From assembly GCA_905480285.1 (NCBI GenBank), contig CAJQPT010000025.1, positions 1 through 37,135 on the forward strand: a stretch of 37,135 nt of DNA, in the 5' to 3' direction. Shown here in pieces: positions 9,114 through 33,308 of the stretch. Position numbers and translations under genes: made by a program. Source of the DNA: an uncultured bacterium (GTDB lineage: Bacteria; Planctomycetota; UBA1135; GCA-002686595). Below the pieces are notes generated by a model. It was not told where the DNA came from. It did no database searches and worked only from the letters and a program-made list of their open reading frames with translations. Position 1 is the stretch's first letter. Every line of letters starts with the position of its first letter.

Positions 9114-9128
9114 CGAGCCCCTAACGTA

Positions 9129-10325: not shown

Positions 10326-10936
10326 GGCCGGGCCTCCGCTCCGTCATCCTCGAGGCCGTGGGACCTCAGGTCCAGGACCCGTAGCATCGCCGTGAGGACG
10401 AGAGAGTGGTCCACGGCACCGTCGAGGATGGCCGCCCGCATCTCCTCGAGCGACATGGTCCCCACGTGGATGTCCTCGCCGGGATCCTGAAGCTGCTCCC
10501 CGGAGCGGCGGCAGCCCTCGGCCAGGAAGTGGTGGCAGCGGTTGTTGAGGAAGGCGGGGTTGGGGGCGACGGCGCCCAGGGACCTCCATCGCTCGGCCAC
10601 GAAGCCGGTCTCCTCGCGGAGCTCGCGCTTGGCGGCCACCAGGGGCTGCTCGCCCGGGTCGATCATGCCGCCGGGGATCTCGATGGTGGGCGCGCCGACG
10701 CCGAAGCGGTGCTGCTTCACGACGATCACGTCCCGCTCGGCGGTGAGCCCGACGACGTTGACCCAGTCTGGAGCGTCGACGACCACGCGCTCCATACGCT
10801 GGCCAGTCCTCGGATTCTCGAGCTCTTCGAAGGTGGTGGTGAAGATCCGGTATTCGGTCCCCGCCCGGACACCGTGGCGCGGCCACGGCCTGGGGTCGGG
10901 GATCGACCGCGCTCCGGGTCGCTCGCTCTCAGCCAT
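10322..10936 (-). CDS. NUDIX hydrolase
   Basis: A 204-residue NUDIX hydrolase with a complete box at residues 90-112: G-x5-E-x7-R-E-x-x-E-E-x-G (GMIDPGE, then RELREETGF). Such enzymes cleave nucleoside diphosphates linked to another moiety. The spacing and the N-terminal EYRIFTTTFEEL and PDWVNVVGL segments resemble ADP-ribose pyrophosphatase-like members. An alternating His/Arg-Pro stretch at the N-terminus is not part of the fold. It starts at the ATG at 10936 and is the first gene of the minus-strand operon. Its stop overlaps the GTG start of the FAD oxidoreductase, so the two products are made together. A housekeeping role on FAD or ADP-ribose-type nucleotides for the flavoenzyme is possible but is inference. 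Confidence 0.93.
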   Translation of the reverse strand: MAESERPGARSIPDPRPWPRHGVRAGTEYRIFTTTFEELENPRTGQRMERVVVDAPDWVNVVGLTAERDVIVVKQHRFGVGAPTIEIPGGMIDPGEQPLVAAKRELREETGFVAERWRSLGAVAPNPAFLNNRCHHFLAEGCRRSGEQLQDPGEDIHVGTMSLEEMRAAILDGAVDHSLVLTAMLRVLDLRSHGLEDDGAEARP

Positions 10937-15426: not shown

Positions 15427-16335
15427 TCAGTTCGTGCAGAAGGCCCGGCTGTCGACGAACTCGCGCGTTCGCCGGACCTCCTCCTCGCAGACGCGCTGGC
15501 CGAGGTCACGCAGGTACGCGAGGTCCTGCGGCGCGAGCTGCCGCCAGCGCCGGGGGGGGACGATGGACTCGACGTCGTCGGCGCCGAGGCTCATGGCGAG
15601 CATCACGAGCGCGAGGAAGCTCCCGGCCTGGCTCGGGTGCTCACGGTCGGCTGCGTACAGGTCGAGGTCGGGCCGCTCGCGTCGTGCGATCCCGAAGGCC
15701 TCTCCGACCGGCACGACTTGAACGTTCTGCCCGAGCGCCACCCCTCGGTGGGCAGCGACGATCTCCTCCAACGACAGCCACCCCAGCCGCTCGTAGTCCC
15801 AGGTCATGAAGAGGACCGGGCGGGCTCCCGCATCCCGGACCAGCTCGATGAGCTTGCCTGCGTGCTCCTCAAACGAGGCCACGGTGGACTCGGGGATGTC
15901 CGCTTGGAGGACGACGACGTCCGCCTCACCGACGTCGATCCGGTCGAGCACCTCCTCACGATGCCAGTGGGTCTCCAGGGAGGCGCCGCCCTCGACGCAG
16001 GGCTCCACCGTGACCCCGCGATCCTCGCTGTCGAGGGCCGCGGCGAGCGGCTTCCAGAGGCCGCCGTTCCAGAAGGTGAAGCTGTTGCCCACCATGAGGA
16101 CGCGGCCCGGAGGGGGGACGTCCCAGCGGTGCGCCGGGCGAGCTTGGGCGTCCTCCGCTGTCGCCTCGCCGGGCGAGCTGGGAACCGCTCGGTCGGGGGG
16201 GAGCGGGGCCGCGCTACAGGCGGCGAGGGCGGGCACCGCGGCGAGGGCAGCCGGCCCCGCCAGCGCGCGGAGAACCGCGCCCGCAGCTGCCGGTCTCAAC
16301 GGTCGGCCCCGAGCTCGACCATGGCGTGCACCCAC
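15427..16335 (-). CDS. SGNH/GDSL-like hydrolase lipoprotein
   Basis: A protein of up to 302 residues with an SGNH-hydrolase fold. Block I is VGNSFTFWNGG with the nucleophile candidate Ser85, and the final block is DREHPSQAGSFLA with the Asp/His pair. Substrates of this fold are esters, often acetyl groups on polysaccharides. The N-terminus is a lipoprotein signal ending ALAAC (Cys40 from the long start). Two starts are possible: GTG at 16335, overlapping the upstream gene by 40 bp, or TTG at 16299, which forms a 4-base TTGA overlap with that gene's stop and starts right at the signal peptide. The longer form is listed; the TTG form fits the overlap style of the neighbourhood. It is translationally linked to the TPR/ASPIC gene in either case. 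Confidence 0.82.
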   Translation of the reverse strand: MGARHGRARGRPLRPAAAGAVLRALAGPAALAAVPALAACSAAPLPPDRAVPSSPGEATAEDAQARPAHRWDVPPPGRVLMVGNSFTFWNGGLWKPLAAALDSEDRGVTVEPCVEGGASLETHWHREEVLDRIDVGEADVVVLQADIPESTVASFEEHAGKLIELVRDAGARPVLFMTWDYERLGWLSLEEIVAAHRGVALGQNVQVVPVGEAFGIARRERPDLDLYAADREHPSQAGSFLALVMLAMSLGADDVESIVPPRRWRQLAPQDLAYLRDLGQRVCEEEVRRTREFVDSRAFCTN

Positions 16336-19300
16336 TCGGTCTCAAGGGCCGGGGCCATGGGGACGACCCAACGATGCGCGGGTCGAGTGTTCCACTCCGC
16401 CCGCCAGGCGCGGTGCTCGGGCGTGTCGGGGAAGGACTCGGTGTCGGGGTAGGGGTACCCGCTCATGGCGTGGAACGGGAGCGGCTCGACCTCGAGGGCC
16501 TCGTACGTGTTGTGGTCCCGGTCCTTGGCCCAGCCGTCGAGGAACACCAGGTAGTCCCGCACGTGCCCCTCCGGGACCGGCGGGAGCTTGGAGGCGTCGA
16601 AGCGGAGGGTGAGCGCGTCGCCCGAGCCCATGATCACGTACTGATCGTCGACCGCGGTGAGCAGGGGGCCGACGGCCCCGTAGCGGGTGTAGTCCCCCGG
16701 GTGCTGGTCCCAGCGGGGCTCCATGGCGACCTTGTCCCAGTCGAAGAAGAGGGGGAGGTCTTGCCGGTCGGGGACCTGGCCCTCGGAGAACCCGCGGGAC
16801 CACAGGCGCGTCCCGATCGGCTCCATGGAGGAGGTGATCAGGCCGGCGTCGTCGTCGCAGGTCGCGAGCTCGATGCAGTCCCAGTAGAGCTCGAGGGTCG
16901 AGCCCAGGCGCATCCGCGGGTCCTCACGGTTCAGGATCTCCGAGACGTCGATCACCATGGTCTTCGTCTTGCCCGCGGGGAAGCCCACGGGCGGCCCGGC
17001 GGGGACCCAGGTCCCGTCGGGGCCAGGGATCTCGATCACGGGCGGGATGAACTCGACGCCCGGTGTCGCGGCGGACGCCACGTTCGCGCTGGCGTCACTC
17101 CAGAAGAACCAGCCCGTGGCGACCATGCGCAGCAGCTTCGCGTCCTTGACGTCCGCGGGGTCAAATTCCAGCTCGAGCCAGTGGGGCTCCGCGAGCCCGA
17201 GGTACTGGCCCGCGAGGCGCTCGAAGGGGACCGGGTGGACGGAGTCGCGGTCGCGGAGCTCGGCGGTCCAATCCGCGCCGTCGGAGCCGGTGGCCTTGCG
17301 CACCTTGGCGACCCGCTCCACCACGTGGGTGTGGGGCTCGGGGAAGGGCGGGAACTTGAAGCGCTCGTTGGGATAGATCGCCGTGCCCGCCGGGTGGTCC
17401 ACCACGTCGAGGCGCACCCGGTCCAGGTAGGTGACCTCGCGCAGCTCCTCGGTAAACTGGAGCACCAGCTCGTCGTTCTCGTCGGGGACGAGCTGATCCC
17501 CACGCACGAGCACGTACTCGTCGTGGTCCGGCGGCACCAGCATTCCTGGCGCCATGGGCAGGCCCAGGGGCGTGATCCCGATCACGTCGCTGATGAACTC
17601 GAACGTCTCCCCGTTCCAGGTGTAGAGGAACGGGCAGGAGCCAATGAGGCCCTCGGGCTGGACGCCGAAGTCGGAGTTGTCGAGGAAGAACTGGACGCCG
17701 GCCTCGACGTCGAGCTCCTGCTGGACCACGCCGTTGGGCCAGGAGACTCGGACCACATCCGCATAGGGCCGGTCGCCGATGCCGACGATGGCGGCCTCGC
17801 CACGGAGGTACACGCGGCGGTAGAGGTCCTGGGCGCGTACCTCGAGGACCGCGCCGACCGCCTGCCTGTTGTCCTTCTGGCCGACAAACTTCAGCAGCAG
17901 CGCGTTCTTCGCCGCGTTGGTGGGGGAGATGGCCACCAACCCCTCGTCGGTCAGCTGCATCACCTCGAGGGTGAGCGGCGCGTAGGGGTCCGGCCGGTCG
18001 ATGTCCCTCACCAGCAGGTCGCGGCCGCCTCCAAGGGGGACCTCGAACGCCAGCGGTGCCGGCTGGGTCAGGTTGAGCAGGCCGCGGCAGCTCCCTGCCG
18101 GGTCCATCCACACCAGGTCGACCGCCCCGTTCATGTCGAGGTCCGTGACCTCCACATGGCTCTCCTCGGCGACGTTCACGTCCAGATCCGCGGGCTCATA
18201 GGTCCCCTCGGCCGTGCGGCGGAACCAGCGCGAACCGCCGGCCCCGGGGACGAGCAGGTCCGGGCGGCCATCGGCGTCGAGGTCCGCCACGGTGGGCTCC
18301 CGGAGGAGGGTCGCTCCAGCGAGGCCGCTCGCTCTCAGGTCCTCGAAGAGCCCGCGCCGCAGGGAGTCCATGAGGTGGGTGGCCCCCGCTCCGCCAAAGA
18401 GCAGGTCAACGTCGTTGTCGCCGTCGAGGTCCTCGGCGGCGCACCAGCCGAAGTCACCGGCGGGGAGCGACGCGGCCTCGCTGGCGTCTCTCCAGGCGCC
18501 GCGCGGCTGGACATTGCCGTCCTTGTCGACCAGGGCGCCGGCGCCGTCGTTGCGGAGGAGCCGCGCTCCGAAGGCGCCGACCACAAGCAGGTCGAGGTCG
18601 CCGTCGTGGTCAAAGTCCACGGTCTCGAGGTCGCGGATCTCTCCTTCGAAGGCCGGGAGCGGGACCGGGGAGAGGGTCCAGCGGGGACCCTCATCGTCAT
18701 CCGACTGCTCGAAGAGCACGAGGCGGTCACCCGCAGCTGCCAGGACGTCGAGGGTGTCGCCGCTGAGGCGTTGGTTCAGGTCGAGGGCACGGACCGGGCC
18801 GGTGATCCCGGACGCTGCCAGCTCTGTGGTCTCCAGCGAGGAGTCGTCGCTGCCGTCGCGGAGGTGAACGGCGAGGGATCCGTCGGCCACCGTGATCAGG
18901 TCGAGGGTGCGGTCTCCGTCGAGGTCGCGGATCTCCAGCGCGCTGACGTCGTCGCCGAGCGGGGCGACGGTGCTCGGGGCGATGGTGCGCGGGGCGCCAA
19001 ACTCCGGCGCCACGGCGGGGCGCGTGGGGAAGGAGCCGAAGGGCGCGGGCGGCGTGACACGCGCCAGGAGCCCCTGGTCCAGCTCGACGTCATTGGTGGG
19101 CTTGAAGCCCTTCTCTCGCAGGGACGTCCAGAGGCTGTCCCAGCTGCGCAGCTCCTGTTCGTCGTCTTCGTAGGCGGCCGTGTAGCGGTAGCGCTGGTAG
19201 ACGGCGGTCACGTACCACTGGAGGCCGAGCTCGATGCCGAGGGCAACGACCTCATCCAGCGCCCCGACGGCGCGGTCCAGGTCCTCCTCAAGGCCGAGCA

Positions 19301-19769
19301 GCGCCCGCGCCAGGCCCAGCTTCGACGGCGGGTCCCCTGGGGCGAGCTCGAGGACCCGATCGTAGAGCGCGGGGACCTCCTCCATGCGATCCGGATCGTA
19401 AGAGGCGAGCCTGGCCTGCAGGTAGTTGGCGCCGGGGTCGTCGGGCGCCGCCTCGAGGGCGCGGGCCACCAGGGCGATGGACCCCTCGAGGTCCTGGGTC
19501 TTCAGGGTGACCTGAGCGGCTGTGATCAGGTCGACCACCGCGGGGCTCTCGCCCTCGATCAGGGGGGAGATCTCCTCGAGCGCCGCCCTGTACTCCTCTT
19601 TCGAGAAGAGCACGGCGACGCGCTCACGGGTCAGCGTGGCCTCGACGGAGGGGCGGGCTTGGTCGGTGGAGGAGCCCGGTTCGCCGCAGCCACCAATGAG
19701 GGGTGCGAGGACGAGGGTCGCGAGGGCAGCAGCCCTCAAGATCGGGTCCTGGGCCGGAGTGTCAGTCAT
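16296..19769 (-). CDS. TPR, FG-GAP/VCBS and ASPIC/UnbV lipoprotein
   Basis: A 1157-residue exported protein. The start at 19769 yields a clean lipoprotein signal ending LIGGC (Cys28); in-frame starts up to 12 codons upstream exist. Residues about 50-200 are helical TPR-like repeats (ALEAAPDDPGANYLQARL). Residues about 240-600 are FG-GAP/VCBS beta-propeller blades with repeated calcium-type loops such as DLDGDRTLDL, DFDHDGDLDLL, DLDGDNDVDLL, DLDADGRPDLL and DLDMNGAVDLV. Residues about 625-700 are an ASPIC/UnbV domain (RVSWPNGVVQ). The last ~450 residues are an unassigned beta-rich region with FFWSD and ELYWDCIELA. This architecture is common in planctomycetes, Acidobacteria and Verrucomicrobia, and its function is unproven. 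Surface adhesion or a scaffold role is inference. Confidence 0.9.
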   Translation of the reverse strand: MTDTPAQDPILRAAALATLVLAPLIGGCGEPGSSTDQARPSVEATLTRERVAVLFSKEEYRAALEEISPLIEGESPAVVDLITAAQVTLKTQDLEGSIALVARALEAAPDDPGANYLQARLASYDPDRMEEVPALYDRVLELAPGDPPSKLGLARALLGLEEDLDRAVGALDEVVALGIELGLQWYVTAVYQRYRYTAAYEDDEQELRSWDSLWTSLREKGFKPTNDVELDQGLLARVTPPAPFGSFPTRPAVAPEFGAPRTIAPSTVAPLGDDVSALEIRDLDGDRTLDLITVADGSLAVHLRDGSDDSSLETTELAASGITGPVRALDLNQRLSGDTLDVLAAAGDRLVLFEQSDDDEGPRWTLSPVPLPAFEGEIRDLETVDFDHDGDLDLLVVGAFGARLLRNDGAGALVDKDGNVQPRGAWRDASEAASLPAGDFGWCAAEDLDGDNDVDLLFGGAGATHLMDSLRRGLFEDLRASGLAGATLLREPTVADLDADGRPDLLVPGAGGSRWFRRTAEGTYEPADLDVNVAEESHVEVTDLDMNGAVDLVWMDPAGSCRGLLNLTQPAPLAFEVPLGGGRDLLVRDIDRPDPYAPLTLEVMQLTDEGLVAISPTNAAKNALLLKFVGQKDNRQAVGAVLEVRAQDLYRRVYLRGEAAIVGIGDRPYADVVRVSWPNGVVQQELDVEAGVQFFLDNSDFGVQPEGLIGSCPFLYTWNGETFEFISDVIGITPLGLPMAPGMLVPPDHDEYVLVRGDQLVPDENDELVLQFTEELREVTYLDRVRLDVVDHPAGTAIYPNERFKFPPFPEPHTHVVERVAKVRKATGSDGADWTAELRDRDSVHPVPFERLAGQYLGLAEPHWLELEFDPADVKDAKLLRMVATGWFFWSDASANVASAATPGVEFIPPVIEIPGPDGTWVPAGPPVGFPAGKTKTMVIDVSEILNREDPRMRLGSTLELYWDCIELATCDDDAGLITSSMEPIGTRLWSRGFSEGQVPDRQDLPLFFDWDKVAMEPRWDQHPGDYTRYGAVGPLLTAVDDQYVIMGSGDALTLRFDASKLPPVPEGHVRDYLVFLDGWAKDRDHNTYEALEVEPLPFHAMSGYPYPDTESFPDTPEHRAWRAEWNTRPAHRWVVPMAPALETEWVHAMVELGADR

Positions 19770-19898
19770 GGAGCGCGGGGGAGTGTGGGGCATCGGGTAC
19801 GCCACGTGTCGGGAGGTGTTGGCGCGGTCAGCGGTCGGGCCTGCGTACCCGGGGACAGGCTACGGCGAGAGAGTGGGCCGTCCAATGTCCAACCTCCC

Positions 19899-19952
19899 AA
19901 TGGGCGCAGCCCAGCCGGCTAATGGGCGCAGCCCAGCCGGCCGATGGGCGGA
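19899..19952. repeat. 22-bp tandem repeat of paired palindromes between divergent operons
   Basis: Two near-identical 22-bp units (19899-19920 and 19921-19942) and a partial third (19943-19952). Each unit contains the dyad TGGGCGCAGCCCA (5-bp arms, GCA centre) and an AGCCGGCT palindrome, or a one-base variant of it. The array lies 54-107 bp before the M28 peptidase start and 130 bp before the start of the divergent TPR/ASPIC gene. Direct repeats of a dyad in a divergent promoter region look like an operator, but a slippage product is equally possible. Confidence 0.65.
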
Positions 19953-20005: not shown

Positions 20006-22447
20006 ATGGACGAATTGGCAGAGGCTCCGGGCCGACTCCGCACAGACGGCTTGCGAGCGTGGGGCGCGCTCCTGATCTGGCTGACCGCTGGCGCGACAGC
20101 CGTCTGGCTCGGAGCGCCACCGCCGGCGCTGCCCGAAGATGCGCCAGCGGAGGTCGCGTCCGGAGGGCGCGCCGGCGCCCTTCTCGAACGCATCGCTCGG
20201 GAAGAGGGCGGCGCAGCACCGCAGCCGCGACCGGTGGGGACCGCCGCGAACGCGCGCTGCCGGGAGCGCATCCTCGACGAGTGGCGGCGTATCGGCTTCA
20301 CCCCCGAGGTCTCCGAGCGGGTCACCGTCGTTGGAGATTGGAGCCTCGCTGGATCCACAAAGAACATTCTGACTCGCCTCCCCGGGACCGGTCGCAGCAG
20401 CGGCCCTGGCACCGCCATCCTGTGCATGGCGCACTACGACTCGGTGGGGGCCGGGCCCGGCATCGGTGATGACCTCTCCGGGGTCGCTGCCCTCCTGGAG
20501 GTCGCGCGGGCCCTCAAGGCACGGGGCGGGACGGGGCGCGACGTGATCTTCCTCATCGATGACGCAGAGGAGTCTGGCTTGCTGGGGGCGGCGGCGTTCA
20601 CGCAGCATCACCCCTGGGCCGCGGATGTCGGCGCGGTGATCAACCTGGAGGCCCGAGGGACGAGCGGGCCGAGTCGGATGTTCGAGACGGGGCCAGGCAA
20701 CGCCGCCCTCGTGGAGGCCCTGGCCGATGTCGTCACGCGCCCGAGCACGAGCTCGGTCTCCGTGGAGGTGTATCGGCGGATGCCCAACGACACCGACTTC
20801 TCCGTCTGGCGCAGGCTCGGAGTCCCGGGCCTGAACTTCGCGTTCATCGGTGACGTCGCTCGATACCACACGCCCCTGGACGACCTCGAGCACCTGGATC
20901 CGCGGAGCCTTCAGCACCACGTGACCAACGCCATGGAGGCGGTGCTCGCCCTCGACCAGGCGCCCCTCCCCGCGAGACCCTCTGGCGCTCAGACCGCGGA
21001 CAAGGCCAGCGCCCCGGCCTCCGCAGACGCCGTGTTTCTGGACCTCGGCGGCCGCTCAGTCGTGACCATGGGGATCCCCACGATCCGGTTCCTCGGCGGC
21101 CTCTTCTTCCTGCTCTCCCTGGTGGGCATCAGCCGGGCCTTGACCCGCGGCGCGCTCGGGCTGAGGGGAATCATGCTGGCGCTCCTGGGCGTCTCGTTGG
21201 CCACGGGTTTGGCGGTCATGGTCGCCAAGTTCCACCTCGACCTGCTGCGTATCCTCGGCGCCCCGGCTGTGACCTTCTCGGCGGCGAGCGACCTCCTTGC
21301 GGTGAGCGTCGGCGCGATCGGGCTCGGGTCCCTCCTGGCCATGGTCTTGTTCCTCACGCGGGTCGTGACCTCGGCTGAGTGCGGCGCCGCCGTCGCGCTC
21401 ATGGTCACCCTCGCGGGGATGCTCTTGACCTGGGCCGCACCCGGGGCAGCCTTCTTGCTCGTCTTCCCCTCGGCGATCCTCGCGGTGACCTGGTTCATCT
21501 TCCCCAAGAAGGGCGATCTCGGCGCGCAGGTCAGCAACGCCGCGCTCTTCGCGCTGGGCATCGCCGCCTTCCTCTGGATGCCCCTTCACCTCGGGCTCCT
21601 CGACGCCTTTGGCGCAGGCTCCGGGGCGGTGCTCCTGGGCCCGCTCCTGCTCTGCGGAGCGCTGCTCCTCGCGCCGATCTGTCGGGCCTCAGGAGGGGCC
21701 TCCCCGTGGATCACCGCGGTGCTGCTGGCTGTTGGCCTCGGGGCAGGGGCCTTGGCGACCCGGGCACGTGCGCTCACCCCCGATCAGCCGGGAAAGCTCA
21801 ACCTGGTCCATGTGCAGACCGCCGGCGGCGAGGCCTGTTGGTTGGCCCGTGGCTTCGCGGCGGGGGCCTTGGATTCAGAGGTGCGTACGGAGCTTGTCAG
21901 CTCCCTCGGAGGTGCCGTCCTGAGGCCTCCCTTCGAGCGGATCCCCTGGGCGGGCAGGACGGCCTTCAGCCTGAGCACGCGCCCGGTCAACGTCCCCTTC
22001 CCCGAGCTCGAGGTGGTCGACGGTCGGCTCTCCGAGGAGGGGGGCACGGCCAGGCTCCGGATGCGCACGAACCGCGGCGGCGATGAGCTCCTCCTCAACG
22101 CGGCGGGGCTCGGCGCCATGCGGGCCGAGGGGGTCACTGTGTCGCCGCGAGGGCTGTCCTGGCTCGCCCCGGGCGACGGGTGGCTTGAGTTCGAGGTGGA
22201 CCTCGCGGACGAGCTCGAGGCATCAATCACGGTCTTCGACAAGCGCTTCGGTCTGAGCCGGGTCCTGACGCAGCGTGCCGAGATGTTCCTGACGGAGCGG
22301 GAGCCTCTCCTGGTCCCGGCCCACGACGGCGACGGCTCCATCCTCAAGGCCGAATACGTGCTGCGGATCGACGCCGAGAGCGGGGAGGCCAGCCTGCGGA
22401 TCAAGGGCCCGGACGCCGCAGGACCCGAGGGCGGGGGAGGCCGGTGA
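20006..22447 (+). CDS. Membrane-bound M28 family zinc metallopeptidase
   Basis: An 813-residue membrane peptidase. One hydrophobic segment (about 18-38) anchors an M28 aminopeptidase domain (about 55-315) with all metal ligands present: H143-x-D145 in AHYDSV, D155/D156 in GDDLSG, E188/E189 in DAEESG, E215 in NLEARG and H288 in YHTPLDD. The domain is followed by seven to eight transmembrane segments (about 345-585) and a C-terminal extracytoplasmic beta domain of about 200 residues. The layout resembles the Fxna/ERMP1 style of M28 protein. The ATG at 20006 begins the open frame. The stop overlaps the next gene's GTG start as GTGA (22444-22447). It probably trims peptides at the outer face of the membrane; the partnership with sulfatases suggests sulfated glycoproteins as targets, which is inference. 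Confidence 0.93.
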   Translation: MDELAEAPGRLRTDGLRAWGALLIWLTAGATAVWLGAPPPALPEDAPAEVASGGRAGALLERIAREEGGAAPQPRPVGTAANARCRERILDEWRRIGFTPEVSERVTVVGDWSLAGSTKNILTRLPGTGRSSGPGTAILCMAHYDSVGAGPGIGDDLSGVAALLEVARALKARGGTGRDVIFLIDDAEESGLLGAAAFTQHHPWAADVGAVINLEARGTSGPSRMFETGPGNAALVEALADVVTRPSTSSVSVEVYRRMPNDTDFSVWRRLGVPGLNFAFIGDVARYHTPLDDLEHLDPRSLQHHVTNAMEAVLALDQAPLPARPSGAQTADKASAPASADAVFLDLGGRSVVTMGIPTIRFLGGLFFLLSLVGISRALTRGALGLRGIMLALLGVSLATGLAVMVAKFHLDLLRILGAPAVTFSAASDLLAVSVGAIGLGSLLAMVLFLTRVVTSAECGAAVALMVTLAGMLLTWAAPGAAFLLVFPSAILAVTWFIFPKKGDLGAQVSNAALFALGIAAFLWMPLHLGLLDAFGAGSGAVLLGPLLLCGALLLAPICRASGGASPWITAVLLAVGLGAGALATRARALTPDQPGKLNLVHVQTAGGEACWLARGFAAGALDSEVRTELVSSLGGAVLRPPFERIPWAGRTAFSLSTRPVNVPFPELEVVDGRLSEEGGTARLRMRTNRGGDELLLNAAGLGAMRAEGVTVSPRGLSWLAPGDGWLEFEVDLADELEASITVFDKRFGLSRVLTQRAEMFLTEREPLLVPAHDGDGSILKAEYVLRIDAESGEASLRIKGPDAAGPEGGGGR

Positions 22448-23808
22448 TTCGGCGCCTCTGGCGATGCGCGCTCGCCCTGGGGGCCGTGCTGGTCGCGGCC
22501 TGCGGGGGAGACAGCCCGCGACCCAGCGTGGTCATGGTGGTCGGCGACACCCTTCGTGCCGACAAGCTCAGCTGCATGGGGGGGCCCGCGGGGCTGACCC
22601 CGTACCTGGACCGCATCGCGTCGGATGGTGTGCGCTTCGATCAGGCTCGCTCCCACGCCCCCTGGACGCTGCCCTCCACCGCCTCCATGCTCACCTCGCT
22701 CCACCCCGAGGAGCACGGGGCGGGCGGTCGCCTCGGCCGCTTCACGACGCTCGACGAGGAGGTTGAGACCGTGGTGAAGGGCTTCCGTGACCAGGGGTAC
22801 CGGACCCACGCGATCGTTAACGTGCTCTTCCTCGATCCGGGCCTCTTCGGGGTCACCCGGGACTTCGAGACCGTGGATCAGCAGGTCTTCGAGACCAACG
22901 TCGACGTGCGCGCGGCCGACGCGACGACCCGGGCCGCGCTGGAGTGGATCGAGGCGAATCGTGACGACGGGCCCTTCTTCCTCCTCGTCCACTACTTCGA
23001 CCCGCACTGCGTCTACGCGCCACCGCCCGCGTTCCGCGAGCGGTGGGCTGCGCCTGCGGATCAACAGGGGGATTGGACCTTCGGGACCCGGCCGCAGATG
23101 GTCGCGATCCGCGAGGGCGAGCTCTCACCCGCGGCGGCGACCATCGAGCGCGCTGAGGCCCTGTACAACGGCGAGGTCAGCTACCTCGACGCCCAGATTG
23201 GGCGCCTCGATGACGGCCTGGCGTCCATGGGGCAGCGGGATGAGCTGGTCCTCGTCGTGACGGCGGATCACGGTGAGGAGTTCCTGGACCACGGCGGCTT
23301 CGAGCACGGTCACACCCTGTACGACGAGCTCGTCCGGGTGCCGCTGCTGATCCGCGCGCCGGCGAGGCTCAAGCCGGGGGTCGTGGGCGCCCCGGTCCGC
23401 CACATCGACCTCGCCCCGACGCTCTGCGAGCTCTGCGACCTGCCGGTCCCCGGACAATTCGTCGGGCGCAGCCTCGTCCCGCTGGCGGACGGTGAGCTCG
23501 AGCTCGAGCAGCGATCGACTCTGGCCCACGGGAACATGTGGGCGCGGCCTCAGACCAGTTGGACCTCGGGGGGCTGGAAGCTGATCGTGCGAGAGGGCGC
23601 CCCGGCGCAGCTCTACGAGGTGGCGAGCGACCCCGGAGAGCTCCGGGACCTCGCGGCAGAACGACCGGAGGAGCGGGCCCGCCTGCAGGCTGAGCTCGAG
23701 GCCGTGGAGCGCGGAATGACCGCGCTACGGCGCGGGGAGGCGGCAACGCTGGACCCCCGCACACGTGAGGTGCTCAGCGGACTGGGCTACGGTGGAGAGG
23801 ACGAATGA
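22444..23808 (+). CDS. Sulfatase-fold lipoprotein lacking the formylglycine Cys
   Basis: A 454-residue protein of the alkaline phosphatase/sulfatase superfamily with a lipoprotein signal ending LVAAC (Cys20). Metal-binding segments are present: VVGDTLRAD near the N-terminus, and VVTADHGEEFLDHGGFEHG. At the position of the sulfatase CxPSR motif it has T75-L-P-S-T79 within HAPWTLPSTASML. The residue that becomes formylglycine is therefore Thr and the motif Arg is Thr. Such proteins are common and may be phosphodiesterases or phosphotransferases using Thr, or sulfatases only by annotation. The GTG start at 22444 overlaps the peptidase stop, and its own TGA overlaps the next ATG. There is no transmembrane segment apart from the signal. 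Confidence 0.9.
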   Translation: MIRRLWRCALALGAVLVAACGGDSPRPSVVMVVGDTLRADKLSCMGGPAGLTPYLDRIASDGVRFDQARSHAPWTLPSTASMLTSLHPEEHGAGGRLGRFTTLDEEVETVVKGFRDQGYRTHAIVNVLFLDPGLFGVTRDFETVDQQVFETNVDVRAADATTRAALEWIEANRDDGPFFLLVHYFDPHCVYAPPPAFRERWAAPADQQGDWTFGTRPQMVAIREGELSPAAATIERAEALYNGEVSYLDAQIGRLDDGLASMGQRDELVLVVTADHGEEFLDHGGFEHGHTLYDELVRVPLLIRAPARLKPGVVGAPVRHIDLAPTLCELCDLPVPGQFVGRSLVPLADGELELEQRSTLAHGNMWARPQTSWTSGGWKLIVREGAPAQLYEVASDPGELRDLAAERPEERARLQAELEAVERGMTALRRGEAATLDPRTREVLSGLGYGGEDE

Positions 23809-25370
23809 TGATCATGAAGCACAGCCACGCCCTCCTCGCCGCGATGCTCGCGGCCTGCGCCGCGGCTCCCGACGCGAGCGTCCCCGGCGCCAGCACCGCA
23901 GGCTCCAACGCTCTTCGTCCCGAGCGGCGGCCCAACGTGGTCCTGATCTACGGAGACGACGTGGGGTTCGGTGACCTCGGCTGCTACGGCGCCGAGAAGA
24001 TCCCGACGCCGAACCTCGATCGGCTGGCGGCCGAGGGGCTCCGGTTCACCGACGGGCACTGCGCGGCGGGCACCTGCACGCCCTCGCGCTTCGCGCTGCT
24101 CAGCGGCGTGCATGGCTTTCGAAGCGGCGTCCGGGTGCTCCCGCCCAACGCGAGGCTGACCATTGGGGTCGACGCCTGGACGCTCCCCGACACGTTCAAG
24201 GCGGCCGGCTACCGCACCGGCGTGGTGGGGAAGTGGCACCTCGGCCTGGGCGCAGAGGGAGCGCCGGTGGACTGGAACGGGGCGGTGAAGCCCGGGCCCA
24301 TGGAGTTGGGTTTTGACGAGTCGTTCCTGCTCCCGTCCACGAACGACCGGGTGCCGTGCGTTTACCTCGAGGGTCACGAGGTGGTGGGGCTCGACCCTGG
24401 GGATCCGCTCTTCGTGGGCAAGCTCAAGGACCTGCCCGAGGGGAGCACGAGCTACCCGAACGGTAGGAAGGAGCCGGAGGCGATGACCTACTACCCGAGC
24501 TCCCACGGGCACAACCAGTCCGTGATCAACGGGATCGGGCGCATCGGATACATGGCGGGCGGCGCGTCGGCGCTCTGGGACGACGAGACCATGGCCGACG
24601 TGTTCGTGGAGCGGGCGACCCGGTTCATCGACGAGAACGCGGAGGAGCCCTTCTTCCTGTTCTTCTCCTCCCAGGACATTCACGTACCGCGCACGCCCCA
24701 CCCGCGCTTCCACGGCAAGAGCGAGCTCGGCTACCGGGGGGACGCCATGGTGCAGCTCGACTGGGCCGCGGGCGCCGTCATGGCGGCGCTGGAGGCCCGT
24801 GGGCTCGCGGACGATACGATCGTGATCTTCTCCAGCGACAACGGCCCCGTGTATGACGACGGCTACGTGGACGGCACCACGGTGCTCACGAGCAAGGAGG
24901 AGGTGGACCGGGGCCATGACGGCTCGGGGCCCTACCGCGGGGGCAAGTACCAGGTGTACGAGGGGGGCACGCGGGTGCCGCTGATCGTCCGCTGGCCGGG
25001 GGTCATCGAGCCCGGCGTCTCGTCTGCGCTCGTGACCCAGGTCGACCTGGTCGCCTCCTTCGCGTCCATGCTGGGCGTGCCGCTCCCAGCGGGGGAGGCC
25101 ATGGACAGCCGCGACGCGATGGACGCGCTGCTGGGCCGGGACGCCGTCGGGCGCCAGTTCGTGGTGGAGGAGGCGCGGGGCCTCGCGCTGCGGGACGGGC
25201 CTTGGAAGCTCGTACAGCGGCCGAAGAAGGCGGACGAGCTGTACGACCTCTCCGTAGACGTGGGGGAGGCCTCGAACGTGGCGGCCGACCACCCCGAGCG
25301 GGCCGCGGTGATGGCGGCGCGGCTGGAGCAGGTCCGGTCGGCGGGGCTCAGACCCCTCGGCCTGCGCTGA
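23805..25370 (+). CDS. Arylsulfatase-type sulfatase lipoprotein (CTPSR)
   Basis: A 521-residue type I sulfatase. The activation motif C91-T-P-S-R95 is intact, and Cys91 would be converted to formylglycine by an FGE or anaerobic maturase encoded elsewhere. Other metal and sulfate ligands are present: the DD pair at 51-52 (IYGDDVGFGDLGCYG), GKWHLG and FSSDNGPV. A lipoprotein signal ends LAAC (Cys18), so it sits in a membrane facing the periplasm or outside. The ATG at 23805 lies within an ATGATGATCATG cluster and overlaps the upstream TGA (23805-23808). It probably removes sulfate esters from polysaccharides or glycoproteins, in keeping with the sulfatase-rich genomes of marine planctomycetes. 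The substrate cannot be predicted. Confidence 0.95.
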   Translation: MMIMKHSHALLAAMLAACAAAPDASVPGASTAGSNALRPERRPNVVLIYGDDVGFGDLGCYGAEKIPTPNLDRLAAEGLRFTDGHCAAGTCTPSRFALLSGVHGFRSGVRVLPPNARLTIGVDAWTLPDTFKAAGYRTGVVGKWHLGLGAEGAPVDWNGAVKPGPMELGFDESFLLPSTNDRVPCVYLEGHEVVGLDPGDPLFVGKLKDLPEGSTSYPNGRKEPEAMTYYPSSHGHNQSVINGIGRIGYMAGGASALWDDETMADVFVERATRFIDENAEEPFFLFFSSQDIHVPRTPHPRFHGKSELGYRGDAMVQLDWAAGAVMAALEARGLADDTIVIFSSDNGPVYDDGYVDGTTVLTSKEEVDRGHDGSGPYRGGKYQVYEGGTRVPLIVRWPGVIEPGVSSALVTQVDLVASFASMLGVPLPAGEAMDSRDAMDALLGRDAVGRQFVVEEARGLALRDGPWKLVQRPKKADELYDLSVDVGEASNVAADHPERAAVMAARLEQVRSAGLRPLGLR

Positions 25371-27231: not shown

Positions 27232-29028
27232 TCACCGACACTGGAAGTCGGCGACGATCAGCTCCACCTGGGTGCGCCCGCGCCAATGGCTGAGGCGCGG
27301 CGTGAAGACGAGGTCCACCGGTCGAGACATGCGGAGCTCGTGCTCGCGGCTCGCCATGCCGAAGGCGAGCGCCTTCAGGACGGTCGTGCCCGAGCGGACC
27401 TGCAGCAGCATGTGGGTGCGGTCCTGGCCGATGATGCGGGGCATCTCGTCGAGGCGGATGTCCTCGGCGAGGAGGACGGGCTGCGGGTTACCCTCGCCGC
27501 AGGGCTCCAGTCGTTGGATCTGGCGCATGAGGCTCTCGTCGAAGCCCTGGAGCTGGACCCGGGTGTCGATGCGGAGATCCTGGACCGCGTCCCTGGGGGG
27601 GAGCTCCTTCGCCTTCGCGACCAGCGAGGCGCGCAGGTCGTCGAGGCGGTCGCCCTGGATCTCGCACCCGGCCGCCATGGCGTGCCCGCCGAAGCGATTC
27701 ATGTGATCCGCGCCCGCGCGCATGATCTCCAGCACGCTGATGCCGGGGACGGAGCGCGCGCTCCCGCGACCGATGCCCTCGTCGTCGATGCCGATGATGA
27801 GGGCTGGCCGATGGAATCGGTCCACGATCCGCGAGGCGACGATGCCGACCACGCCGGGGTGCCAGCCCGCGCCGCCGAGGACCATGATCGGATACGCCTC
27901 GGGGTCCGCGAACTGCTCCGCTTGCTCGAGGGCCTCCTCGAGGACACCGCGCTCCACCTGGCGGCGCGCGTCATTGAGGGACTCGAGGTGCTCGGCGTGG
28001 CGGCGGCCCTCCACCGCGTCGGCGGCGAGCAGCGTCTCCACGGCGCGCGCCGCGCTGTCCATGCGTCCGCTGGCGTTGATGCGCGGACCGATCTGGAAGC
28101 CGATGTCCTCGGCGGTCAAGGCCCTCCCCGCGAGGTCGGTGCGCTCGAGGAGCGCCTGGACCCCCGGCGACGGCGACTCGTGCAGAGCGCGCAGGCCGAA
28201 GTGCGCGAGGATGCGGTTCTCGCCGATCAGGGGCACCACGTCGCAGACCGTCGCGATGGCCACGTAGCCGAGGGCCTCGAGGAGGAACTGCCGGAGGTCG
28301 GGGCGGACCTTGTCGCCGTCGCTCATGCGCTGGCATACGGCCCAGGCCAACTTGAAGGCCACCGCGCTCCCGCAGAGTTCACGGAAGGGGTAGGTGGACG
28401 TGGGGAGCTTGGGGTTCACCAGCGCGAACGTCGGCGGCAGGTCGCCCTCGGGGGGCTCGTGGTGGTCCGTGACAATGACATCGACGCCGGCGTCGCGGAG
28501 CGCGGCGATGGGCTCCACCGCCGAAGTGCCGTTGTCCACGGAGATGACGAGCGTCGCGCCGGTGTCCTTGGCCTTGACGACCGAGTGGTCGCCGAAGGAG
28601 TAGCCATCCTTCGTGCGATGGGGGATGTGCCACTCGACCTTCGCGCCCAGGTGCTTCAGGAAGCGCACGAGGAGGACGGTGCCGCTGACGCCGTCCACGT
28701 CGTAGTCCCCGTGGACCAGCACGGTCTCGCCGTCCGCGACGGCCCTCTCGAGGCGCTCGGCGGCTCGCTCCATCTCGGGCAGCCCCGCCGGATCATTCAG
28801 GCCGTGCAGCGTCGGGGCCAGTTGGGCTGCGGCAGCCTGGGGCGTGCCGTGACCTCGGTTGACCAGGAGCCGCGCCAGAACGTCCGGGACCCGCTCGGAA
28901 CGCACGAGCCCCTGGACCTGGTCGAGATCGGGCTCCATCAGGTTCCAGTGACCTGGCAAGACGGGGAGTGCGCTGGCGCCTGAGGGGCGCGAAGCTGAGG
29001 CCGAGGCCGTGGGGGGGGGATGCGCCAT
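27232..29028 (-). CDS. recJ: Single-stranded-DNA-specific exonuclease RecJ
   Basis: A 598-residue RecJ, the 5'-to-3' ssDNA exonuclease of recombination and mismatch repair. The DHH-domain motifs are in order: VHGDYDVDGVSG (around residue 108), SVDNGTSA, and VTDHHEPPEG. The DHHA1 domain has GGHAMAAG, and a C-terminal OB-like domain ends the protein. The length is typical. The first twenty or so residues are an Ala/Ser/Pro-rich tail absent from most homologues. The ATG at 29028 is preferred because an AGG lies eight bases upstream; a GTG at 29034 is also possible. It is divergent from selA across an 83-bp spacer. Expected to be cytoplasmic and manganese/magnesium dependent. Confidence 0.96.
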   Translation of the reverse strand: MAHPPPTASASASRPSGASALPVLPGHWNLMEPDLDQVQGLVRSERVPDVLARLLVNRGHGTPQAAAAQLAPTLHGLNDPAGLPEMERAAERLERAVADGETVLVHGDYDVDGVSGTVLLVRFLKHLGAKVEWHIPHRTKDGYSFGDHSVVKAKDTGATLVISVDNGTSAVEPIAALRDAGVDVIVTDHHEPPEGDLPPTFALVNPKLPTSTYPFRELCGSAVAFKLAWAVCQRMSDGDKVRPDLRQFLLEALGYVAIATVCDVVPLIGENRILAHFGLRALHESPSPGVQALLERTDLAGRALTAEDIGFQIGPRINASGRMDSAARAVETLLAADAVEGRRHAEHLESLNDARRQVERGVLEEALEQAEQFADPEAYPIMVLGGAGWHPGVVGIVASRIVDRFHRPALIIGIDDEGIGRGSARSVPGISVLEIMRAGADHMNRFGGHAMAAGCEIQGDRLDDLRASLVAKAKELPPRDAVQDLRIDTRVQLQGFDESLMRQIQRLEPCGEGNPQPVLLAEDIRLDEMPRIIGQDRTHMLLQVRSGTTVLKALAFGMASREHELRMSRPVDLVFTPRLSHWRGRTQVELIVADFQCR

Positions 29029-29111
29029 GGGCACAACCTAACAGCGGTTCGGACCGGGATCGAGCCCGGCGGCGCGACGGACGGCTCGTCGGGCGCTAAT
29101 CTCGGGGCACC

Positions 29112-30620
29112 ATGAGTTCCGGTAAGCAGGCCAACAGCGAGGCAAACCCGTTCCGAGCCCTCCCGAGCGTGGACGAGGGGCGTCGGGTGCTCGACGGGAT
29201 CCTGGATGCTCCCGCAGGCGGCCCTGCCGGTGACACGACCGGTGATCAGGCGGGCGACCCGTCGGGTCATTCACTGAACGCCGACGCTCGCCTGGGCGCG
29301 ATCCCGGCGGCAGTGCGCACCGAGCTCGTCCAGCAGGAGCTGGACGCCTTCCGGCGGCGCATCGGCAAGGACGGCCTGAGCGGGGCGGACGTGGAGGCGG
29401 AGCTCTCTGGCGGTGCGTTCGAGGCAGCGCTCGCCGCGCGAGCCCGGGTGGAGGCTGGCCGAGGGGTCCGCTCGGCCGTGAACGCCACCGGGGTCGTGCT
29501 GCACACCAACCTCGGGCGGGCGCCGGTGCATCCCGAGGCGGCCGAGCGCATGCGCGCCGCCGCCGAGGGGTACTGCGTGCTCGAGATGGATCGCTTCAGC
29601 GCGCGGCGCGACGAACGCGACGCGCGCCTCGGGGTGCTTCTCTCCCGCCTCACCGGCGCAGAGGTCGGTATCGCCGTGAACAACTGCGCCGGCGCCGCCT
29701 TCCTGATGATGCAGACATTCGCCGGCGGGCGTGAGGCGGTCGTGAGTCGAGGCGAACTCGTCGAGATCGGTGGTTCGTTTCGGGTCCCTGACGTGATGGC
29801 GCGCGCGGGGGTGCGGATGATCGAGGTCGGTACCACGAACCGCACGCGGGCCGTGGACTACGAGCGCGCGATCGGGCCGGATACGGGGCTGCTCATGAAG
29901 GTTCACACGAGCAACTATCGGGTCGTGGGCTTCACCGAGGAGGCGGACCCGGCGGAGCTCGCGCAGCTTGGCAAGGAGCACGGGGTGACCTCGGGCTGGG
30001 ACCTCGGATCGGGGCGCATCGAGGTCGAGGGGACACGCCCCCTCGACGAGGTCGGCGACGAGACCGTGGTGCGCGACGCCGTGGCCACAGGCGTTGACGT
30101 GGTGGCCTTCTCCGGGGACAAGCTCCTCGGGGGCCCCCAGGCCGGGCTGATCGTTGGCCGTCGGGACTCGATCCGGGCCCTGCGGGCCAATCCCATCTAC
30201 CGTGCGCTCCGCCTGGACAAGGTCGCGCTCGCTGGCCTCGAGGCCACCCTCGAGCTGCTGCTCGCTGGACGCGGCGGTGAGATCCCCTCACGCCGCCTCA
30301 TGCATCGGCCTGAGGCCGAGCTGGCGGGGGCCGCTGGCCGTATCGCGGCGGCCATCGACGCGCTCCCCGGCTTCGCCGCCGAGGCGGTCCCCGAAAAATC
30401 GCAGCCCGGCAGCGGCAGCGCGCCGACGATCTTCCTGCCCACGACCGCGGTCCGTGTGTCGGCGGACGGGCAGTCGGCCGAGTCCCTCGCCACCGGCCTC
30501 AGGGCCGGCGAGCCGCCGGTCTTCGTTCGAATTCATGAGGACGCCGTCCTGCTGGATCCGCGCGCGCTCCTGCCCGGGGATGAGGAGCGCCTCCTGGCAG
30601 CCTTCGCGGCGATCGCCTGA
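29112..30620 (+). CDS. selA: L-seryl-tRNA(Sec) selenium transferase
   Basis: A 502-residue PLP enzyme that converts Ser-tRNA(Sec) to Sec-tRNA(Sec) using selenophosphate, the product of SelD. The family signatures are clear: NATGVVLHTNLGRAP (around 124-138), FVxVNNCAGA-type segment VGIAVNNCAGAAF, the glycine-rich GTTNRT, and the PLP lysine K337 in FSGDKLLGGPQAG. The N-terminal domain carries the usual LPSVDEGRRVL start plus an extra Gly/Asp-rich insert (about 34-54, with PAGGPAG and TTGDQAGD). No strong Shine-Dalgarno is visible before the ATG. The gene is divergent from recJ and upstream of selD by 324 bp. Its presence shows that the organism uses selenocysteine. selB and the Sec tRNA are not in the window. 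Confidence 0.97.
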   Translation: MSSGKQANSEANPFRALPSVDEGRRVLDGILDAPAGGPAGDTTGDQAGDPSGHSLNADARLGAIPAAVRTELVQQELDAFRRRIGKDGLSGADVEAELSGGAFEAALAARARVEAGRGVRSAVNATGVVLHTNLGRAPVHPEAAERMRAAAEGYCVLEMDRFSARRDERDARLGVLLSRLTGAEVGIAVNNCAGAAFLMMQTFAGGREAVVSRGELVEIGGSFRVPDVMARAGVRMIEVGTTNRTRAVDYERAIGPDTGLLMKVHTSNYRVVGFTEEADPAELAQLGKEHGVTSGWDLGSGRIEVEGTRPLDEVGDETVVRDAVATGVDVVAFSGDKLLGGPQAGLIVGRRDSIRALRANPIYRALRLDKVALAGLEATLELLLAGRGGEIPSRRLMHRPEAELAGAAGRIAAAIDALPGFAAEAVPEKSQPGSGSAPTIFLPTTAVRVSADGQSAESLATGLRAGEPPVFVRIHEDAVLLDPRALLPGDEERLLAAFAAIA

Positions 30621-30944
30621 GGCTCGCTGGAGGCGCGGGCCGGTGGCTTGTCCTCGGCCTGGTCCTGAATCGAGGTCCTCTGGGCGCGCGGGGCGAGCTC
30701 AACCCTGGTCGGCTGGGCGGATGCGCCGCGCGGCCGATCCCAGGGCACGGCCTTAGCCGCTCTGGCTCCGCTGCTTCGGCCCTGCTGCTTCGGCTCTACT
30801 GCTCCGGTGCCTCCGCTCTGGCGCCCGCGCGGTCACCGGGGCGGCGTGAACTCCCCACCCGATCGGGAATCCGCTGCTCGCTTCGCTTCCAAGGGGGCGG
30901 GCGTGGGCTTAGAGTCGCGGCGGGGAAGCGCCCCGACCAACATC
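30621..30944. other. 324-bp spacer between selA and selD
   Basis: No convincing gene. I looked for a Sec tRNA on both strands (T-arm GTTCGA-type loop with TCA anticodon) and found none. The middle (about 30758-30820) is a weak imperfect repetition of CTGCTTCGGC-like units with pyrimidine-rich bias. The last 140 bases run in frame with selD without a stop, but upstream of 30945 the codons are atypical. The selD promoter and ribosome-binding region probably lie here; GGGGAAG about 20 bases before the selD ATG is a weak candidate. Confidence 0.6.
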
Positions 30945-32012
30945 ATGTTCAAACGCAACAAGCGACTCACCGACTACGCCGCCTGCGCGGGCTGAGCGGC
31001 CAAGATGCCCATGGGGCAGCTCACGCAGGTGCTGCGTGACCTTGATCCGTCCTCCGATCCACGACTCATCGTCGGTCCTCAGACCGTCGACGACGCGGGC
31101 GTCGTCGTGCTCGGTGAGCGCGACGGCCTCCCCTCAGGGGTCGAGGTCGCGCTCGTGCAGACCGTGGACTACTTCCCGCCGGTGCTCGACGACGCCTACC
31201 TCTACGGCGCCGTCGCCGCGGCCAACTCTCTCTCGGACGTCTACGCCATGGGGGGGCGGCCCATCAGCGCGCTCAACCTGGCCGGGTTCCCGAAGGACTT
31301 CAACGAGCAGTGGATCGCCGACATCTTCCGGGGCGGCTTCGAGAAGGTCGCCGAGGCCGGGGCGGTGGTCGCTGGCGGGCACACGGTCGAGGCGCCCGAG
31401 CCCCAGTTCGGGTTCGCGGTCACGGGGATCGTGGAAAGGGCTCACCTCGCGGACAACGCGGGGGCCCAGCCGGGGGACGTCCTCTACCTGACCAAGTCGC
31501 TCGGGATGGGGTCGATGACCACCGCGGGCAAGTTCCGCAAGGCGCCCGAGGCCACCGTCCGAGCCGCGGCCGAGCAGATGGCCACGCTCAACAACCGCGC
31601 GGCTGAGGCGATGAACAGCGCGGGCTCACACGCCTGCACGGACATCACCGGCTTCGGCCTGAACGGGCACGCCAGCAACATTGCGCGCTCGTCGGGGGTG
31701 ACCATGCGCTTTGACCTCTCCGCGGTTCCGATCTTCCCGGGCGCGCGCGACCTGGCCGCCAGGGGCATCGTCTCGGGCGGCGTCAAGCGCGGCAAGTCCG
31801 CCCTCGCCGGGCAGGTGCAGGTTGCCAAGGGGCTCGACCAGGCGCTTGTGGACATCTCCTACGACGCGGAGACCTCGGGCGGCCTGCTGATCGTCCTCCC
31901 CGAAGCCCATGCTCCCAAGCTCGAGGACGAGCTCGCCCGGCGGGACGTCGAGGTGCACCGGATCGGTGAGGTGCTCCCGAGGGAGGGTGACTCTCTCGTG
32001 CAGCTGGTCTAG
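30945..32012 (+). CDS. selD: Selenophosphate synthetase, selenoprotein with in-frame TGA (Sec)
   Basis: A 355-residue SelD, which makes selenophosphate from selenide and ATP. The full gene starts at the ATG at 30945 and reads MFKRNKRLTDYAACAG, then TGA (30993-30995), then AAKMPMGQL, all in one frame. In E. coli SelD the aligned segment is LTQYSHGAGCGCK, so the TGA stands at catalytic Cys17 and the second Cys is Ala. Many bacteria have Sec at this site. The remainder is intact: the GGHTVEAPEPQFGFAVTG glycine-rich region, SLGMGSMTTAGKFRK, DITGFGLNGHA and YDAETSGGLLIVL. A hairpin suited to a bacterial SECIS follows the TGA. Translation from the internal ATG at 31005 would remove the active site. 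Twenty-seven bases separate it from the next gene. Confidence 0.95.
31018..31042 (+). promoter_or_regulatory. Putative bacterial SECIS hairpin of selD
   Basis: Perfect 8-bp stem TCACGCAG/CTGCGTGA (31021-31028 with 31032-31039) closed by the 3-nt loop GTG, extended below a C-C mismatch by two further pairs (31018-31019 with 31041-31042). The loop starts 33 nt after the TGA. Known bacterial SECIS elements have a loop about 16-37 nt after the UGA with a G in its first two bases, and both conditions are met. A smaller hairpin TGCCC-ATG-GGGCA (31006-31018) lies between the TGA and this stem. SelB binding is inferred. Confidence 0.75.
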
Positions 32013-32039
32013 GAGAGAGCCCGCCCCCGTCCTCCCATC

Positions 32040-33308
32040 ATGGAACGAATCGCTCGCCTGCTCCCTCCCGTCGCCTTGCTCCTCGCCGTCGCGGCCTGTC
32101 GGGTCGCTCCCGGCCCGGAAGTCGTACCGGAGATCGCACCTTTGGGCCCGGAGCCCCTGTCCGTTCCGGCCGTCCTCAGTGACGCCTGGGAGCTCTCCAC
32201 GGTCTTCCGTGGCGACACCCGGATCAACGGCGTGGCCTGTGGAGAGCTCGACCCCTCATCGCCTGGGGACGAGATCGTCGCCGTGGATCGGCGCGGCGCC
32301 GTGCGTGCGTTCCGGCGGTCGGGCGAGGGCTTCGAGCCCATGGACTTCCGGCCCGCCGGTGGGGCCAGCATGGGGGAGCTCGTGCAGGTCATCTGCGCCG
32401 ACCTCCTTCCCTCCGTGCCCGGGGACGAGATCGTCGCGGTAGGCATGTTCGAGGGTGGGGAGGACGACGGGGGCCGCGGCATCGTCCGGGTGTTCGCTCG
32501 CTTGCCCTGGGGCGATGGCGAGGGCTGGATGGGGGCCAGCCTGGTGACGCCCGGCCTCGTACACGCCGTGGCGGCGGGGGATCTCGACCCGTCGCGTCCG
32601 GGCCTGGAGGTCGTGGTCGCAGGATACTTCGGCGAGGCGCGGTTGCTCGGGGTCACGCTGACGGACCAGTGGTACGCGGTGGAGGATCTCTCGGGTGCCC
32701 ATGAGCTCGGTCACGAAGGGAACGCCAAGGGGGCGTGCCTCACGGCGGGCGGGTTCGCCCTCGCCTGTGACGATGGCGGCCTCAGCGAGTTCACCCGCGG
32801 CGACGATGGGGCCCTCTCGATCCATGGGCGACGTGACCTCGGCGCGGCCCTTGCGCGCATCGCGCCCTTCCCTGGAGACGGCGTGGTCGTGTGCGACAAC
32901 GGTGGGATGCTGCGCGTCATCGAGCGTGGCGCTGGCGGTCAACTCAACGGGGCCGTGACGGGCCTGGAGCGGGCGGACAATCGACTGCGCGGTGCCGTGG
33001 TCGCGGACCTCGTCCCCGGGGATGAGGGCGTCGAGGTGGCCACCGCGGGCTACGACGGGGTCATCCGGGTCGTGACCCTGGAGAACGTCGAGATCCGCTC
33101 GATGGATCACCCCAACCGGGCGGCGAGGTCGGGGCTCATGAGCTCCAAGCGCTCCGTGGCCCGTGACTCGGCCAAGCTCCACCACCTGACCACCGGGGAA
33201 ATCGACGGGCTCGGGTTGTGCCTCGTGAGCTGCGGCTACTCGGGGAGCGTGCTCGTGGTGCACCGCGTCGAGGCGCGCCGCGCTCCCATGACCTCGCAAG
33301 AGCCGTGA
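32040..33308 (+). CDS. Beta-propeller-like lipoprotein
   Basis: A 422-residue exported protein with a good lipoprotein signal (LLLAVAAC, Cys20). The body contains FG-GAP-like blades in which a repeated loop of the type GELDPSSPGDEIVAVD recurs (ADLLPSVPGDEIVAVG, GDLDPSRPGLEVVVAG, ADLVPGDEGVEVATAG), pointing to a propeller of about six or seven blades. I see no catalytic motif. It starts 27 bases after selD, so it could be on the selD transcript, although no functional link to selenium is evident. Its TGA overlaps the GTG start of the glycerophosphodiesterase gene (33305-33308), so those two are translationally coupled. Confidence 0.85.
   Translation: MERIARLLPPVALLLAVAACRVAPGPEVVPEIAPLGPEPLSVPAVLSDAWELSTVFRGDTRINGVACGELDPSSPGDEIVAVDRRGAVRAFRRSGEGFEPMDFRPAGGASMGELVQVICADLLPSVPGDEIVAVGMFEGGEDDGGRGIVRVFARLPWGDGEGWMGASLVTPGLVHAVAAGDLDPSRPGLEVVVAGYFGEARLLGVTLTDQWYAVEDLSGAHELGHEGNAKGACLTAGGFALACDDGGLSEFTRGDDGALSIHGRRDLGAALARIAPFPGDGVVVCDNGGMLRVIERGAGGQLNGAVTGLERADNRLRGAVVADLVPGDEGVEVATAGYDGVIRVVTLENVEIRSMDHPNRAARSGLMSSKRSVARDSAKLHHLTTGEIDGLGLCLVSCGYSGSVLVVHRVEARRAPMTSQEP

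Follow-up and report, generated by a model that had tools for sequence, protein, structure and literature searches.

A selD gene with an in-frame UGA codon and a predicted downstream SECIS hairpin in an uncultured planctomycete

The selD locus and the selenium genes of the genome

The window considered here, a stretch of 37,135 nucleotides from contig CAJQPT010000025.1 of an uncultured planctomycete, carries a gene for selenide, water dikinase (selD) on its forward strand, whose full read-through frame occupies positions 30945-32012. A TGA codon at 30993-30995 stands in frame between the ATG at 30945 and the TAG that ends at 32012; as the earlier note on this DNA had stated, the frame is the same on either side of it, and read-through yields a product of 355 residues with this single TGA, MFKRNKRLTDYAACAG(U)AAKMP.... 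The product is a full-length member of the curated SelD family, scoring 333.4 bits against TIGR00476 (cut-off 125) with residues 7-321 on profile positions 1-309 of 311; two further SelD equivalog models matched without reaching the cut-off set for each (NF002098, 284.7 of 299; NF010705, 182.3 of 291). In a phmmer alignment with the solved SelD of Escherichia coli (3u0o; E 1.2e-62), residue 17, encoded by the TGA, falls on Cys17, and Lys20 on Lys20, positions which we take to be those of the catalytic residues. This alignment of the read-through product, the first check that the note had proposed, bears out its placing of the stop at the Cys/Sec position of the active site, and the protein is predicted to catalyze ATP-dependent synthesis of selenophosphate.

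The next gene upstream on the same strand is selA (29112-30620), encoding L-seryl-tRNA(Sec) selenium transferase (TIGR00474, 454.5 bits with a cut-off of 267.9; PF03841, 397.7 bits). The gap between selA and selD measures 324 nt (30621-30944) and contains CTGCTTCGGC-like repeats. Of 55 fetched relatives, 28 have a selA match that precedes selD and shares its strand, with gaps that vary and with several matches being cut fragments, and one (L054) has it downstream; none was seen in 26, many of which are short loci. With the ends of the selA match and of selD as its limits, the gap comes to about 260 nt in L042 and roughly 1.4 kb in L020, L021 and L024.

The assembly to which the window belongs comprises 4.5 Mb in 339 contigs and is 84% complete. 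A selB gene lies on contig C216 (327.9 bits, or 350.2 together with an in-frame neighbour; cut-off 242.25), and contig C23 carries a tRNA-Sec that scores 69 bits (gathering score 47) and that ARAGORN also reports as SeC with anticodon tca; 11 further matches to the tRNA-Sec model in this genome are all below the cut-off. The selB model exceeded its cut-off in 2 of 14 control genomes and the tRNA-Sec model in 5 of the 14, so that the latter may not be fully specific on its own, though ARAGORN agrees with it here. With selA in the window, the genome thus has selA, selB and tRNA-Sec, and the two components whose absence the earlier note held would speak against a selenoprotein are both there.

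Other selenium genes are also encoded. A selenouridine synthase gene (selU/ybbB) was identified on C127 (232 bits with a neighbour; cut-off 219.75), and the end of C120 carries an N-terminal piece of fdhA with an in-frame TGA (...QCAAT(TGA)HAPTVAGL...) and, downstream of it, a hairpin whose loop reads GGUCU. The C-terminal part of fdhA likely lies at the end of C276, the gene apparently being split across contig ends (C120:15436-15933, L080; C276:44024-45244, L081), and FdhA profile positions 160-265 are in neither piece. Given the in-frame TGA and the hairpin of this fdhA piece, SelD is probably not the sole selenoprotein of the genome. For two of the nine genus members, G004 and G006, there is neither an FdhA match above the cut-off nor a TGA-bearing one; SelD might be the main selenoprotein in these two, or fdhA might be missing from their assemblies.

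The hairpins downstream of the UGA codon

The earlier note had described an 8-bp hairpin with a GTG loop 33 nt downstream of the TGA. The hairpin is there, on the forward strand at 31021-31039 (DNA, TCACGCAG-GTG-CTGCGTGA; RNA, TCACGCAG-GUG-CUGCGUGA), with its loop at 31029-31031; the distance of 33 nt holds for the loop, whereas the stem begins 25 nt after the TGA. The energy of the hairpin is -10.8 kcal/mol (z -3.62), a stability reached by none of 200 shuffles. The constraints for a bacterial SECIS (bSECIS) printed in PMC13188914, namely 16-37 nt from UGA to loop, a loop of 3-9 nt, a stem of 4-16 bp, an energy of -7.5 kcal/mol or lower and a G within the first two loop positions, were applied by script, and the selD hairpin falls within every one of them; it resembles the consensus in its 3-nt loop with G and then U, its stem length and its spacing. 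Taken by itself the hairpin says little, since uninterrupted stems at least as long, subject to identical limits on spacing and loop, trail 50 of the 790 TGA triplets (6.3%) on both strands of the window. Folded from the UGA, the 61-nt stretch gave z -1.13 against dinucleotide shuffles (29 of 200 as good), and all eight pairs formed in 0.2% of 2000 synonymous shuffles drawn from the gene's own codon usage (mean 5.2 pairs). An Rfam scan of 28900-32500 with E up to 5 returned four matches, none of which came near its gathering score or coincided with the hairpin.

It is comparison with relatives, through covariation and codon-invariant columns, that decides in favor of a predicted SECIS. The alignment (A1) comprised 35 of the 40 TGA sequences, with at least 59% identity to the window SelD and 31 distinct sequences over both hairpins described here; five sequences from other phyla (L053, L054, L056, L057 and L062) were left out of it and also out of the group means for synonymous shuffles. 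Over both hairpins 97.3% of cells are paired and in 14 cells both partners have changed, counts which are not independent because the sequences are related; the covariation score was reached by none of 500 shuffles. Three pairs show a both-sided change, a number reached by 15 of 500 shuffles, and all three belong to the distal (SECIS) helix. Sliding the partner by one to three columns as a control lowered pairing to 32.5-55.3%, with 0-7 both-sided cells.

The codon columns point the same way. Among 102 columns of the 35 genes in which the residue is invariant and more than one codon is possible, three are restricted to a single codon: Gly GGG at 31014 and Leu CTC at 31020, both in the predicted element, and Tyr TAC at 31170; columns of the same genes are compared, so that the test shares one tree. 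The Gly codon at 31014-31016 is GGG in 35/35, against a share of 23% among the other Gly codons of these genes; for CTC the share among the other Leu codons is 44%. In the comparison columns, the Gly codon immediately ahead of the TGA (30990) is GGG in 7/35 and Leu 30966 is CTC in 18/35. The energy of the distal stretch was below the synonymous mean in all 35 sequences (p < 0.05 in 26) and in 40 of a further set of 48 from the order, of which 45 belong to other families and three to the window's own (L066, L067 and L121, the last from the same genome as L025, which is one of the 35). Under the uninterrupted-stem rule with the -7.5 kcal/mol threshold, a SECIS candidate passed in 32/35 of the close set, 28/48 of the further set and 65/88 in total, with one sequence lacking any candidate.

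These comparisons bear on two other readings of the TGA. Since Sec in SelD is read from sequence, the codon might instead be passed at a low level with insertion of a standard amino acid; we consider this very unlikely and rejected it, given that a covarying SECIS and the Sec machinery accompany the TGA, with selB above its cut-off in 112 of 121 genomes of the order. The other reading starts translation at the ATG at 31005, which opens a long ORF, and takes the gene either as a functional SelD of 335 residues with neither Cys nor Sec or as a pseudogene. The mechanical ORF list indeed gives only 31005-32012 (335 aa) for this frame, the truncated protein that the earlier note expected from default annotation. 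However, Leu 30966, Asp 30972, Ala 30978 and Gly 30990, all encoded before the TGA, are invariant in 35/35 with silent codon changes, from which we conclude that this stretch is translated, and past the TGA the element is more conserved than its coding function requires; with conservation on both sides of the codon, we rejected the internal start as extremely improbable.

Between the UGA and the SECIS lies an additional 5-bp hairpin, UGCCC-AUG-GGGCA (31006-31018, forward strand), with a putative function; it begins 10 nt after the UGA, and the GGG at 31014-31016 is paired with CCC at 31008-31010. In the 35 aligned sequences this proximal stretch was always more stable than the synonymous mean (mean z -2.08; 11 at p < 0.05), whereas in the further set of 48 the mean z was -0.48 (35 below zero; two at p < 0.05), and from this difference the proximal hairpin looks like a trait of the close relatives. 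Both-sided changes in the pairs of the proximal helix were not found among the 35, and the window taken alone lends the hairpin no support: 46 of 200 dinucleotide shuffles were as stable, and synonymous shuffles gave p values of 0.21 and 0.125.

The position of the SECIS differs within the order. In the further set of 48, the loop of the best uninterrupted candidate lies at a distance from the UGA of 33 nt in 18 sequences, 26 nt in 18 and some other length in 11, and one sequence has no candidate. The 26-nt form was observed in L066, L067, L071, L091, L094, L099, L100, L103, L105, L106, L107, L108, L110, L114, L116, L117, L118 and L120, with L100 and L107 being weak candidates. These distances suggest that the predicted SECIS moved by 7 nt between SelD lineages of the order; the difference does not strictly follow a family boundary, because G029 and G041, of the window's own family, have the 26-nt form. 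A search of the open-licence PMC literature, supplements being outside its scope, found no mention of a two-hairpin bSECIS or of Sec-containing SelD in this order; two minor details may be new, namely the extra 5-bp hairpin of the close relatives and the placing of the SECIS loop at 26 rather than 33 nt elsewhere among the SelD lineages of the order.

The active-site codon among relatives

A relative is encoded by 45 of the fetched loci, and 44 were counted for Sec or Cys, L051 being without an N-terminus. The active-site codon is TGA in 39/44 and TGT in 5/44, the latter being the more distant ones; homologues with Cys where the window has its in-frame UGA are L055, L058, L059, L060 and L063, together with G088 and G074 from the order. 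The closer TGA relatives are Planctomycetota MAGs, unnamed bacteria and Planctomycetes bacterium Poly30, whose record CP036434 (L024), titled a complete chromosome, has TGA at the SelD codon; because G007 and L024 agree in their coordinates, we infer that the window's planctomycete belongs to the same genus-level group as Poly30. The codon is also TGA in records of Dehalococcoidia, Zixiibacteriota, WOR-3 and Cloacimonadota.

Our survey of the order covered 121 genomes including the window's own, and a clear SelD was identified in 115; weak matches only were obtained in G044 (E 2.1e-5) and G065 (1.1e-4), and none in G023, G028, G061 and G098. TGA is found in 113 of these 115 (including G021, where the N-terminal piece with the TGA is on a separate contig) and Cys in two. 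At the active site, the codon was read base by base in 88 TGA sequences including the window, among which L025 and L121 represent one genome; the count of 113 rests in part on such readings.

That a Cys codon (TGC or TGT) was turned into TGA by sequencing or assembly, a result by which resequencing would have told against the earlier note, has a vanishingly small probability. Cys codons do occur, in the five distant relatives and in two members of the order; nevertheless, TGA is repeated at this codon by independent assemblies, the titled complete chromosome CP036434 among them, and is accompanied by a covarying SECIS, so that the error is in practice rejected. A changed genetic code (of type 4 or 25), with TGA read genome-wide as an ordinary amino acid, would likewise place an in-frame TGA within a conserved gene, and was dismissed as practically inconceivable because seven of the ten window genes examined terminate with TGA and both tRNA-Sec and SelB are present.

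The two Cys-encoding genes of the order use TGT (L064, from G088) and TGC (L065, from G074). Genome G088 has retained selB, and its Cys-selD gene still has seven of the eight pairs of the SECIS hairpin; its best uninterrupted stem, of 6 bp and -5.0 kcal/mol, fails the energy rule of -7.5 kcal/mol. This hairpin remnant points to a change from Sec to Cys, and SECIS-like remnants after such changes are described in PMC1794560.

Predicted self-dependence of SelD and comparison with known systems

We regard it as highly probable that selD encodes a selenoprotein in which the UGA at 30993-30995 specifies Sec at residue 17 by means of the SECIS at 31021-31039, and that SelD feeds the pathway on which it depends. 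The reading frame, the alignment, the machinery genes, the conservation and the covariation are what the sequences show, and known biology supplies the rest. When the ribosome meets the UGA, SelB with Sec-tRNA(Sec) would bind the SECIS hairpin, and Sec would be inserted at the Se-binding position of the active site, where it would serve in catalysis. Full-length SelD would then provide selenophosphate, from which SelA would produce Sec-tRNA(Sec) and thereby allow more SelD to be made, in a positive loop. The dependence of SelD on its own product, as proposed in the earlier note, is in this way supported, with the dynamics of the loop being those expected from known biology. No second SelD was found in the window's own assembly, where the only other match scored 19.9 bits at 30%, and the single-contig genome G007 has one SelD match only.

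A broader reading would join three things: a recoding signal of two hairpins in the genus and its close relatives, a 7-nt shift of the SECIS between SelD lineages during which the Sec stayed, and a Sec loop that, with no second SelD found and hence no Cys-SelD as backup, could act as a switch necessarily inherited as protein. The proximal hairpin sits about where the mRNA entry of the ribosome would lie and, ahead of the SelB-binding SECIS, might tune pausing or Sec insertion. We hold this combination to be possible and rather doubtful.

A Sec-containing SelD is a known arrangement, predicted here in nearly all the relatives examined; the SelD of Haemophilus influenzae and human SPS2 are further cases. 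Such proteins, and their self-dependence, have long been known, as PMC1794560 and PMC13188914 record. The window SelD is like this family in that its N-terminal Se-binding loop has the Sec codon where E. coli has Cys17, and in having a UGA with a downstream bSECIS, selA, selB and tRNA-Sec in the genome, and the predicted self-dependence. Unlike in E. coli SelD, the second Cys (Cys19) is replaced by Ala (GUAAK versus GCGCK), and unlike in the bSECIS consensus, as given in PMC13188914, an extra conserved 5-bp hairpin precedes the SECIS in the window's close relatives. Among planctomycetes, the Porphyra isolates P1 and P2 have genes for Sec insertion and a 2-selenouridine synthase, and FdhA is listed among the putative selenoproteins of P1 (PMC4807772); the genome studied here is like these isolates in its Sec-insertion genes and selenouridine synthase, and has an fdhA with an in-frame TGA.

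In this planctomycete order, for which MAGs are the main source of knowledge, nearly every genome sampled encodes a SelD predicted from its codon to contain Sec, and gene callers that do not handle Sec would leave the active-site residue out of it. Relatives sampled this densely provide a good natural alignment for following the evolution of a bacterial SECIS inside coding sequence, and they also suit the question of whether a cell whose only SelD contains Sec can start its selenium metabolism again after losing it.

Elsewhere in the window, two very long ORFs (6255-10490, 1411 aa; 16326-19922, 1198 aa) have no Pfam match at E 0.001, and both are overlain by long ORFs on the opposite strand. 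Two neighbouring and slightly overlapping sulfatase genes (22444-23808 and 23805-25370) follow a gene for an M28 peptidase (20006-22447). Beyond selD, the ORF at 33218-34870 matches only the first 94 of the 244 positions of the GDPD domain, and is possibly broken or frameshifted.
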